Source: Thermococcus radiotolerans (lineage in GTDB: Archaea; Methanobacteriota_B; Thermococci; Thermococcales; Thermococcaceae). From it: a stretch of 64,000 nucleotides of DNA. Position numbers and translations under genes: made by a program. Shown here piece by piece: positions 2,557 through 46,160 of the stretch; position 1 is the stretch's first letter, and every line of letters begins with the position of its first letter. The stretch lies in the NCBI RefSeq assembly GCF_002214565.1, contig NZ_CP015106.1, positions 806,001 to 870,000 of the forward strand. Direction: 5' to 3'. Below the pieces are notes generated by a model. That model ran no database searches and was not told the origin of the DNA. It worked only from the letters and a program-made list of their open reading frames with translations.

Positions 2557-2736
2557 CGCTTCGTGGGAAGCGAAGCAAAGTTCTGGGGGTGTGGGGGCGT
2601 TAGCCCCCCGGAGGATTAAGGAACAGAGGAAGGTGGGGAAACGTAGTTTCCCAGGTTTTTAGAGAAAACGGGGCGCGGGGTGGAACCCCGCATCGGGGGT
2701 TTGAGAGTACAGGAAACTTTGCCTGCGCAAAGTTTC
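2557..2736. repeat. Train of five perfect hairpins
   Basis: Five uninterrupted stem-loops follow each other in 180 nt: CGCTTC/GAAGCG (2557-2572), GGGGGC/GCCCCC with GTTA loop (2593-2608), GGGAAAC/GTTTCCC with GTA loop (2636-2652), GCGGGGT/ACCCCGC with GGA loop (2675-2691), and GAAACTTTGC/GCAAAGTTTC with CTGC loop (2713-2736). Their centres lie about 36-44 nt apart. The arm sequences all differ, so this is a conserved layout and not copies of one repeat. No convincing gene runs through it. The last hairpin is also the start of a repeat found again at 45914. Confidence 0.6.
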
Positions 2737-2753
2737 ATCAAAGTTTGTGATTC
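2712..2753 (+). repeat. Hairpin repeat, partner copy A1
   Basis: A 10-bp hairpin (GAAACTTTGC, 4-nt loop) followed by CATCAAAGTTTGTGATTC. The same about 42 bases recur with few changes at 45914-45955. It faces the tRNA-linked copy at 2961-3017, so the two form an inverted pair about 300 bp wide. Confidence 0.7.
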
Positions 2754-2960
2754 TTTTATGGATTGCTATTTAGAAGGGGTCTTCACTTAAATTGGCAGTT
2801 GATTTGGATTCATTCCACGAAGGCAACCTTCAATAGGTTCGGTTTTTTAGCGCTCCTTTGGAGCGCGAGTTGAAGTTGAACCCGTTAAAAAGAGCCTTTT
2901 TGGCAATGAATCCCCTTATAAAGTCACCACTAAAACAAAAACCCGCTAAAAATCTGACCA
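2754..2960. other. AT-rich spacer, no gene seen
   Basis: About 200 AT-rich bases between the two facing hairpin repeats. The only reading frames (for example at 2858) are short, cross the tRNA antisense and lack a ribosome site. An inverted repeat around AGCGCTCCTTTGGAGCGC (2849-2866) is the only further structure. I see no tRNA, sRNA boxes or promoter that I can support. Confidence 0.6.
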
Positions 2961-3017
2961 CTCAAAAGGAATCACAAGCTTTTGATCAAACTTTTGCTCT
3001 GCAAAAGTTTGTATTAC
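2961..3017 (-). repeat. tRNA-trailing double-hairpin repeat, copy B1
   Basis: Read on the minus strand it begins 5 nt after the CCA of tRNA-Arg with ACAAACTTTTGC-AGA-GCAAAAGTTTG, then the near-palindrome GATCAAAAGCTTGTGATTCC and TTTTGAG. Near-identical copies follow tRNA-Thr (33316-33374) and tRNA-Cys (46031-46085) at the same distance and in the same orientation. Confidence 0.75.
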
Positions 3018-3093
<76 letters not shown>

Positions 3094-16424: not shown

Positions 16425-16663
16425 TGGGGTCGGCCAGTGCCAGTCTCTTCATCCGGTAGCGATCCGACCGGTAAACGCTCTTCATCCCCCTTCCTTCCTC
16501 GACGGATTCTTTTTAAAACCTTGGCATCAACTCCCTCAGGCCGATGACGAGCGTTAGCCACGCTGAGCGGTGAGGAGAAGAGGGTTAGCCGAGGCCGTTC
16601 TGAATCTCAGAATTTCTTGAGGGTTTATATCACATGACGCCCAAATAGAGACTGGGTGAGCCG

Positions 16664-33238: not shown

Positions 33239-33315
33239 GCCCCGGTAGCCTAGCCTGGCGGGGCGGCGGACTTGTAATCCGCCGGTCGCGGGTTCAAATC
33301 CCGCCCGGGGCTCCA
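33239..33315 (+). tRNA. tRNA-Thr (TGT)
   Basis: Plus-strand cloverleaf: acceptor GCCCCGG/CCGGGGC, anticodon stem GCGGA/TCCGC with loop CTTGTAA (TGT, reads ACA), T-arm GCGGGTTCAAATCCCGC, T73, encoded CCA at 33313-33315. TATA-like TTTATATT at 33208-33215. A tRNA-trailing repeat follows at 33316. Confidence 0.96.
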
Positions 33316-33374
33316 CTCCAACAAACTTTTGCTCTGCAAAAGTTTGACCAAAAGGTCGTGATCCCTCTGAAGGG
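33316..33374 (+). repeat. tRNA-trailing double-hairpin repeat, copy B3
   Basis: After tRNA-Thr CCA: a 5-nt gap, ACAAACTTTTGC-TCT-GCAAAAGTTTG (33320-33346), then GACC-AAAA-GGTC (33346-33357), GTGAT and a short CCCT-CTGA-AGGG hairpin (33363-33374). Same layout and sequence as the copies behind tRNA-Arg and tRNA-Cys. Its first hairpin loop (TCT) is the complement of the loop in copy B1 (AGA). Confidence 0.75.
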
Positions 33375-44537: not shown

Positions 44538-44602
44538 TTCGAAACCTCCAGGTGGTGTCAGCCTGACGTGCACTCATCACATTCAGTGGGATGGAGTGGT
44601 CA

Positions 44603-45871
44603 TCATCCACCGGGTTTCTCTCCGCCGAGGCGGTATAAATTCTTTCCGAGCCACTCGTCCAAAGTTTTCTGTCTCGCGAGGCTTCCGAGGATGTAGCTTC
44701 TCGCAAGGTATTTCTCGAAGGGATGCTCAAGGCGCCTCTTTATGGCATCGAGGGCCTCGTTGAGCGTCTCGAAGCGTCCGATCAAGTTGCCCATCGCCTT
44801 CTTCACCCCGAGGCGAATCTGCCAGACGCCGACCGGTGCGTAGTACTCGGGGGTAACCTCACGGAAGACGACCGCTCTCGCCTGCCTCCTCCTTGCCCTG
44901 AGGGCTTCGAGAACGCTCAAACGGGCGGCATGATAGGCACCGGCGGTCTCCTTGACGTACTCCTTCCTCCCGCGGAAGTCCTCGTAGTCGTGGATTACAC
45001 TCGGCTCGCTCGCACCGAAGAGCGAGCCCTTAAGCCAGACCTCAAGGAGTTCGAAGGCGTAAGGCTCCGGCATCAGGAGAACCGCGTAGCGGTTGCCCAT
45101 GAACCGGTAGAAGTAAACCTCGTAGTCGTTTATCTCCGGGTTGTGCAGAATCTCACGCCGCAGGTTCTTTCCAATGGTGTCTTGAACGGCTGTAATGCTC
45201 CACCTCGTTGGGACGAGCCTCTTGTCCAGGCCCAGAAGACCCGCGGAGAGGAGCCTTATGATGTAGTACTCGTCGAAGCCCCAGTTGTATAGGCGCATTA
45301 TAGCCGCTTCCGCCTTCAGCTCATCACTCACGACGTAGTCCGTCCTCCTCGGAATCTTGGGGTTCTCAGTGAGTTCGAAATCGAGGAGCTCGGCCTTCGG
45401 CCCGATAGGCGGTGCAAACTCACTCGGAAGGACTTTGAGAACCGGCTTCCTCTTGAGGAGTACCTCGCTGTCAACGGGCTTTATCGACATCGCCAGCTCC
45501 TGAACCTCGCCGAGGATTCTACCGCTCCGCCTCACGTGGACGTCAGCCTTCGTCTCACCCATGACGAGAAGCGAACGATAGTAGAGGATGTCCCTTATCG
45601 TCTTGTCCTCCCACTTCATCGGACTGTCGAGGTGACTGGTGTTTCCCTCAATAGGGGGCACCAGGGGTCCTATGCGGACCTTGGGATAACCGTACTCACC
45701 AACGAAGATACTCGGCGGTGAGGAGCCGAAGAGGTGGCGTTTGTTCAGTCTCTGTTCGACGGTGCGGGCTACTCTAAACCTCTCAAGAATCGGACAGGTT
45801 GGCCTGCCACAGAGGAGCTTTCTGCCCTTGCAGATCGCACAGAGTTTCGAGTTGAAGACCGGGGCACTCAT
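44603..45871 (-). CDS. Nre-family DNA repair protein
   Basis: 422-residue archaeal Nre protein (DUF650/DUF651). N-terminal zinc finger CAICKGRKLLCGRPTCP (about 11-27) and the conserved blocks SSPPSIFVGEYGYPKVRIGPL and VPTRWSITAVQDTIG. Near the C-terminus QKTLDEWL fits a PCNA-interacting (PIP) box, as known for Haloferax NreA, where the protein protects against mitomycin damage. No start problem: ATG 45871, 42 nt before a hairpin repeat. Intact zinc ligands. Confidence 0.93.
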   Translation of the reverse strand: MSAPVFNSKLCAICKGRKLLCGRPTCPILERFRVARTVEQRLNKRHLFGSSPPSIFVGEYGYPKVRIGPLVPPIEGNTSHLDSPMKWEDKTIRDILYYRSLLVMGETKADVHVRRSGRILGEVQELAMSIKPVDSEVLLKRKPVLKVLPSEFAPPIGPKAELLDFELTENPKIPRRTDYVVSDELKAEAAIMRLYNWGFDEYYIIRLLSAGLLGLDKRLVPTRWSITAVQDTIGKNLRREILHNPEINDYEVYFYRFMGNRYAVLLMPEPYAFELLEVWLKGSLFGASEPSVIHDYEDFRGRKEYVKETAGAYHAARLSVLEALRARRRQARAVVFREVTPEYYAPVGVWQIRLGVKKAMGNLIGRFETLNEALDAIKRRLEHPFEKYLARSYILGSLARQKTLDEWLGKNLYRLGGEKPGG

Positions 45872-45913
45872 CGAAGGTAGGTAAGCGGGGAGGTATTTAT
45901 GGTTTGTTCCCTA

Positions 45914-45955
45914 GGAAACTTTGCTGGGCAAAGTTTCATCAAAGTTTGTGATTCC
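45914..45955 (+). repeat. Hairpin repeat, partner copy A2
   Basis: GAAACTTTGC-TGG-GCAAAGTTTC (45915-45937) followed by CATCAAAGTTTGTGATTC. Apart from the loop it matches copy A1 at 2712-2753 almost base for base. It faces copy B2 (46031-46085), forming an inverted pair about 170 bp wide. Confidence 0.75.
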
Positions 45956-46030
45956 TCCCGAAAAGCCAACTGAGAAAAGGCTTGCAATCTCAACAAGAAT
46001 TTCAAGCAGGAATTCACTCTCAGAGAGGCA

Positions 46031-46085
46031 CCTCAAAAAGGAATCACAACTTTTGATCAGACTTTTGCCCTGCAAAAGTTTGTTA
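46031..46085 (-). repeat. tRNA-trailing double-hairpin repeat, copy B2
   Basis: On the minus strand it follows the tRNA-Cys CCA after a few nt with AAAACTTTTGC-AGG-GCAAAAGTCT, then GATCAAAAGTTGTGATTCC and TTTTTGAG. Layout as in copies B1 and B3, with one base missing in the second part. Confidence 0.75.
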
Positions 46086-46160
46086 TGGAGCCGGGAGGGG
46101 GATTCGAACCCCCGTAAAGCGGATCTGCAGTCCACCGCCTCACCTCTAGGCTATCCCGGC
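46086..46160 (-). tRNA. tRNA-Cys (GCA)
   Basis: Minus-strand cloverleaf: acceptor GCCGGGA/TCCCGGC, anticodon stem GTGGA/TCCGC with loop CTGCAGA (GCA), T-arm GGGGGTTCGAATCCCCC, U73 as in archaeal Cys tRNAs, encoded CCA at 46086-46088. 21 nt downstream of tRNA-Ser, so probably in one transcript. Confidence 0.96.

Follow-up and report, generated by a model that had tools for sequence, protein, structure and literature searches.

A family of near-palindromic, non-coding units behind stable RNA genes in Thermococcus, probably mobile and predicted to terminate transcription in both directions

The hairpin that follows three tRNA genes in a 64-kb stretch of Thermococcus radiotolerans DNA (the window, by which we mean the whole stretch analysed) is one end of a discrete, non-coding, near-palindromic unit of about 304 bp. 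The unit is laid out as inverted hairpins at the two termini, a GC triloop hairpin of 7 bp at the midpoint, and T-rich arms of roughly 139 nt each. We consider it probable (roughly 0.6) that such units are a family of non-coding, near-palindromic mobile elements that sit at the 3' boundaries of stable RNA genes in Thermococcus and act as two-way terminators.

Complete and partial units in the window

A sequence-only reading of the window had described three copies of the hairpin, and all three were borne out: AAACTTTTGC-N3-GCAAAAGTTT occurs at 33323-33345 and 2988-3010 with no mismatch and at 46059-46081 with one, against a chance expectation of 0.00 in 100 shuffles. As that reading had stated, the copies lie in tRNA orientation, their hosts being tRNA-Thr(tgt) (33239-33315, +), tRNA-Arg(tcg) (3018-3093, -) and tRNA-Cys(gca) (46086-46160, -); the GATCAAAAG / GACCAAAAG part comes after the hairpin; and the window's other three tRNAs (Met, Asn and Ser) lack it, those for Asn and Ser each being directly trailed by another tRNA. 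On the tRNA strand the loop sequences are TCT for Thr, AGA for Arg and AGG for Cys, so that reverse-complementing the Thr loop yields the Arg loop and not, as had been claimed, the Cys loop. A second, facing end, missed by the earlier reading, is present at 2711-2762 (Arg) and 45913-45961 (Cys), leaving only the Thr copy as a lone end. Both ends of these units are matched by R1, a covariance model built from the terminal end and looser than the strict hairpin search.

The complete triple-hairpin unit, 303 bp long, lies behind tRNA-Arg(tcg) at 2711-3013 on the tRNA strand (-), with R1 matches of 81.4 bits at 2962-3013 (-) and 37.7 bits at 2711-2762 (+). Its RNA fold (-108.2 kcal/mol, z -7.06) consists of a hairpin at each terminus and a single long arm with the central hairpin at its tip. 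The tRNA-proximal terminal hairpin, CAAACTTTTGC-AGA-GCAAAAGTTTG (2987-3011, -), was found by both hairpin search and RNA fold; the central hairpin, GCGCTCC-AAA-GGAGCGC as read on the tRNA strand (2850-2866, -), stands at 0.51 of the unit's length; and the distal terminal hairpin, GAAACTTTGC-CTGC-GCAAAGTTTC (2713-2736, -), was identified from the RNA fold. No listed open reading frame of at least 80 aa lies inside 2711-3013. Outside the unit is part of a GC-hairpin linker that we call module B (GTACTCTCAAACCCC..GCGGGGTTCCACCCCGC..GGGGGGCTAACGCCCCC; 2574-2710, -), with 87-91% identity (77-78 nt compared) to B behind Thr(ggt), Arg(ccg) and Leu(tag). Farther out lies a remnant (..AGCGCTGGCGGAAAGATGA; 2542-2573, -), matched by eye to C-type ends, a related kind of end of the form CATCAACCC..GCGTTGATGG.

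The other two copies are incomplete. Behind tRNA-Cys(gca), a 172-bp deletion derivative (45913-46084, -) has kept both ends, with R1 scores of 70.2 bits at 46033-46084 (-) and 44.3 bits at 45913-45961 (+); the central hairpin was not found in it. Behind tRNA-Thr(tgt) there is a lone proximal end (33320-33370, +; R1 64.6 bits), for which the R1 search gave no facing end with E<3 downstream; no central hairpin is present, and the remainder of the unit is lost or unrecognisably diverged. Rfam also places two C/D box sRNAs in the window, sR34 (16540-16594, +) and sR7 (44556-44610, -), and no unit was recognised near them.

The unit evolves as one entity

We examined 50 units from this and other Thermococcus genomes, which were gathered by requiring both ends, a criterion that in part predetermines their end pairing and folding scores. 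They measure 306.6 ± 7.2 bp, and their pairwise identity has a median of 52%. Arm lengths are 140 ± 5 and 138 ± 5 nt and do not correlate with each other, and the central 7-bp GC triloop hairpin lies at half length in nearly all 50 units. Three sequence versions of this hairpin exist, each paired with a partner strand of its own. The end boxes are likewise of two classes, GTGATTCC facing GGAATCAC or GTAGCTCC facing GGAGCTAC, and the same class was found at both ends in 39 of 40 units (29 GAT/GAT and 10 AGC/AGC; permutation p<1/5000). Box class is, moreover, associated with centre class. Given this match within units and the association between box and centre, we conclude that the unit evolves as one entity.

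Folded as RNA, all units together gave a mean z of -6.4, a value inflated by the selection of two-ended units; the unit interior, which played no role in selection, gave a mean z of -3.2, or -2.1 without the central hairpin. Foldback potential as DNA is also strong (z -6.4). The interior arms do not form a perfect palindrome, being only weakly similar to each other (7.0 for a unit's own arms, 6.8 across units and 4.4 when shuffled). Units may also be stacked, in arrays of up to three.

In orthologous units (the Gln(ttg) and Arg(tcg) flanks of genomes G000 and G059), the body is kept and the apex of the terminal hairpin is exchanged symmetrically. Some apices hold extra small hairpins (GACGTTGGAGCGAAGCTCCAACG; the apex cases include L274 and Thr(ggt) of G059), as if they were sites of repeated insertion or inversion.

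Units lie behind stable RNA genes

The strict hairpin search of the 1.87-Mb T. radiotolerans genome gave 8 copies, none more than about 12 nt from the 3' end of a tRNA. The sequence-only reading had proposed that a comparison of tRNA 3' flanks should show the element at several tRNAs, and it does: among the 44 Rfam tRNA flanks of this genome, directly behind the CCA, 16 carry this end, 5 module B and 3 a C-type end. R1 matches in the same genome come in pairs that face each other at a distance of about 300 bp. Two of these pairs at first appeared to have no tRNA but proved to lie behind intron-bearing tRNA-Trp and tRNA-Met genes, one lies behind the C/D sRNA sR36, and one follows a two-hairpin, H/ACA-like RNA ending in ACA; the leftover pairs without an annotated tRNA belong to second units that are stacked on a preceding element. 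The R1 search found no significant unit away from stable RNA genes in this genome, the 3' sides of protein genes included. Random spread through the genome, which the earlier reading had named as the outcome that would speak against it, was therefore not seen, and the clustering of significant matches behind stable RNA genes eliminates a random intergenic repeat. In other Thermococcus genomes, 28 of the 29 top matches lie a few nucleotides from a tRNA 3' end, across many isotypes. The target range is broader than tRNA: genes for C/D and H/ACA-like sRNAs are also included.

The intron-bearing tRNA-Trp (L132, about 203-343) and tRNA-Met (L130, about 635-740, minus) had both escaped ARAGORN and the Rfam tRNA search. 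The two-hairpin RNA (L133:320-408; G000:C1:649619-649707) is present in 27 of 31 genomes, with 81-98% identity in 26 other Thermococcus genomes; it has no Rfam match and, with its terminal ACA, looks like an H/ACA sRNA. The unit itself is not a known Rfam RNA, as nothing in it scored above the gathering threshold (Rfam 15).

R1 matches were obtained in 58 of 61 Thermococcus genomes, G022 and G060 being free of units, and are sparse in four sister genera; a further genus of the same family gave no match in any of the 9 genomes sampled. In the one member of that match-free genus that was inspected, the tRNA flanks are plain, and a T-run frequently lies near the CCA.

Each arm is rich in T-runs when read inward

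Read from the RNA gene, the proximal arm contains 32-54% T in most bins and has 3.0 runs of four or more T, compared to 1.2 such runs of A and to 1.5 after shuffling. The distal arm mirrors this pattern, being A-rich, with a weaker signal. Of 16 tRNAs with a unit, 11 have their first T4 run 7-11 nt after the CCA, close to the position of the native T-run in the unit-free genus. It had been remarked earlier that archaeal termination depends on T-runs and not on hairpins; the remark is apt, but the element itself does contain T-runs.

The account of the P. furiosus polymerase in PMC2253867 includes efficient stopping at five to six T at 90 C. Because the archaeal polymerase, on that account, ends at T-runs, a two-way terminator would be the simplest function for the unit, as the inward T-run richness of each arm suggests. 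The stronger T-run signal in the arm on the RNA-gene side fits selection for termination; T-rich arms could also reflect A+T bias plus symmetry. Archaeal oligo-T terminators similarly place sense-strand T-runs of 4-6 shortly after a gene, but they consist of a single T-run, whereas the unit is a large, symmetrical and, on our reading, mobile cassette with hairpins.

The same RNA 3' end is filled differently across species

We found that the DNA behind a given RNA gene varies among species. Behind sR36, 21 genomes have A (the triple-hairpin unit), B, C, remnants or nothing, and every element begins 0-3 nt past the conserved RNA end; behind the H/ACA-like RNA there is A, C or nothing. At the Val(cac) locus the upstream DNA of G002, G032 and G000 is 92-93% identical over 476 bp; in G002 and G032 the tRNA is followed by a unit and then by a C-type remnant, in G000 by the C-type element only. 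Close relatives also occupy different genes. G000 carries Lys(ttt) and Arg(tcg) units with 90% identity to each other across 311 bp, and the best match of the Lys unit in G059 lies behind Val(cac), while the G059 Lys gene carries a different unit. Module B, which contains GGGGGCTCCGCCCCC, GTGGGGTTCCACCCCAC and other GC hairpins and reaches about 170 bp, is 91-95% identical between several tRNAs. It too starts directly behind the tRNA CCA (flanks at G000:C1 796553, 931529, 1155903, 1254907 and 1829273; the window's copy is the part at 2574-2710), and it occurs behind sR36 in other species.

Because the same RNA 3' end is differently filled across species, the unit is better described as a mobile, target-restricted palindromic repeat than as a fixed trailer. 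The earlier reading had offered a conserved tRNA trailer, a mobile element targeting tRNA 3' ends and a processing signal. The second is the best supported of the three, on the grounds that the units are discrete and two-ended, that sites are filled or empty depending on the species, and that the closest relatives sit at different tRNAs. A fixed tRNA trailer is rejected in view of sites that are empty or otherwise filled in relatives, and a fixed trailer that is needed is made unlikely by the lack of matches in the 9 sampled genomes of the match-free genus and by the plain tRNA flanks of its inspected member.

We propose that a new copy lands just past the point where the mature tRNA or sRNA ends and would thereby displace the native T-run terminator. 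The unit would replace it with its own, each arm read inward presenting a hairpin and then several T-runs. Whichever way round it lies, a symmetrical unit would halt transcription coming from the RNA gene as well as from the other flank, and its insertion would therefore be harmless or useful. We infer that transcripts end in the unit, that copies are directed to these sites instead of inserting at random and being selected afterwards, and that movement occurs through some enzyme or through ectopic recombination; the strict boundary at mature RNA ends could stem from selection instead of targeting. More tentatively, and with somewhat less than even odds in our judgement, the units may represent a new class of mobile element that addresses the 3' ends of transcribed small RNAs (tRNA, C/D and H/ACA) and pays its way with a symmetrical two-way terminator, types A/C and B sharing the address. 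The address might then be read through the terminating polymerase, an exposed single strand or the nascent RNA.

A rather unlikely alternative is that the units do not transpose: they would be host cassettes for termination or 3'-end processing, which gene conversion and ectopic homologous recombination pass from one stable RNA gene to another in a highly recombining genome and which are retained for ending or trimming RNA. Strict placement directly behind mature RNA 3' ends, the greater T-run enrichment of the tRNA-side arm, the preservation of length and structure despite sequence divergence, and the fact that certain orthologous units, such as the Gln(ttg) pair, have stayed with their gene would all be expected of such cassettes. 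Gene conversion, however, makes no discrete unit at a site that is empty in relatives with unrelated downstream DNA, and species and a genus that are free of units have ordinary tRNAs.

Mobilisation and relation to known systems

Among the loci examined we saw no coding copy, autonomous partner or mobilising enzyme for the unit. The region at G006 1044683-1045692, where a 1-kb spacing had raised the suspicion of an autonomous copy, contains stacked units only. There is no consistent target-site duplication: the longest word shared across unit borders was 1.65, compared to 2.00 when permuted (n=49). A long direct repeat (9 nt, TTATCCTTG) flanks one unit alone, G000:C1:1828799-1829101; it is possibly a target-site duplication or due to chance. 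The far end of the unit carries no tRNA 3' part, and the distal flanks differ. The Y1 transposase (PF01797) is absent from 46 of 61 genomes (that of T. radiotolerans and 45 of the 60 others), including the carriers with most units, and an origin from IS200/605 or RAYT elements is dismissed since most carriers lack the gene. A plasmid or phage origin is disfavoured, as the plasmid and phage records searched contain no match to the unit. The mover is possibly ectopic exchange between repeats, perhaps aided by integrases, or some further enzyme; Thermococcus integrases recombine short homologies (PMC5495485).

We found no account of the element, either in Rfam or in the papers searched. Its form recalls MITEs and BIMEs; it lacks key features of each, and its strict address sets it apart from them. 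With MITEs it shares small size, lack of coding capacity, multiple copies, inverted ends and movement across loci. That it is a classical MITE of a DDE transposase whose autonomous partner is gone, confined to RNA ends by the survival of harmless insertions, would agree with inverted ends of about 50 bp and with a multicopy, non-coding length of about 300 bp. We nonetheless hold this origin improbable: the unit has neither a consistent target-site duplication nor a detected parent transposon, its exact symmetry about a midpoint hairpin is unusual, its ends hold hairpins of their own, and in T. radiotolerans it was found only behind stable RNA genes, the search giving no copies elsewhere, even at the 3' sides of protein genes. 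REP/BIME sequences mobilised by RAYT (Y1) likewise form inverted hairpin pairs in 3' intergenic positions; in contrast to them, the unit is about 304 bp long, has three hairpins, is tied to RNA genes rather than to mRNA 3' ends, and occurs in genomes that mostly lack the transposase. Elements of tyrosine integrases (pTN3, tgv1/tgv2) also use a tRNA gene as their address, but they recombine inside the gene and duplicate part of it, whereas the units lie outside, behind the CCA, with no duplication seen, are free of genes, and are found at sRNA genes as well.

Thermococcus genomes rearrange fast and have few insertion sequences or known repeats, and inversion breakpoints lie in tRNA gene pairs (PMC2718504, PMC5495485). 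Equally improbable to us is the idea that the palindromes form cruciforms or bind proteins at highly transcribed genes, in the manner of BIMEs, and act as substrates for the tRNA-linked inversions known in Thermococcus: the strong DNA foldback, the fixed spacing of the three hairpins, the inverted orientation of tRNA-Arg(tcg) beside rplL in some species and the inversion breakpoints reported in tRNA gene pairs (PMC5495485) would agree with it, but extrusion or protein binding has no backing in the present results, the published inversions were ascribed to an integrase acting on tRNA genes (PMC5495485), and T-run polarity is not among its predictions. Palindromic repeats found genus-wide exactly at such sites are a candidate rearrangement substrate that annotation has overlooked. 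They also provide a natural experiment on archaeal termination, in which one RNA gene is followed by a native T-run, A, B or C across related species.

At the rplL locus (tRNA-Arg(tcg) of the window; L150-L179), the content downstream of the tRNA varies by species; the tRNA lies on the opposite strand in some, and other tRNAs take its place in others. tRNA-Arg(tcg) together with its elements thus flips or swaps at this locus.
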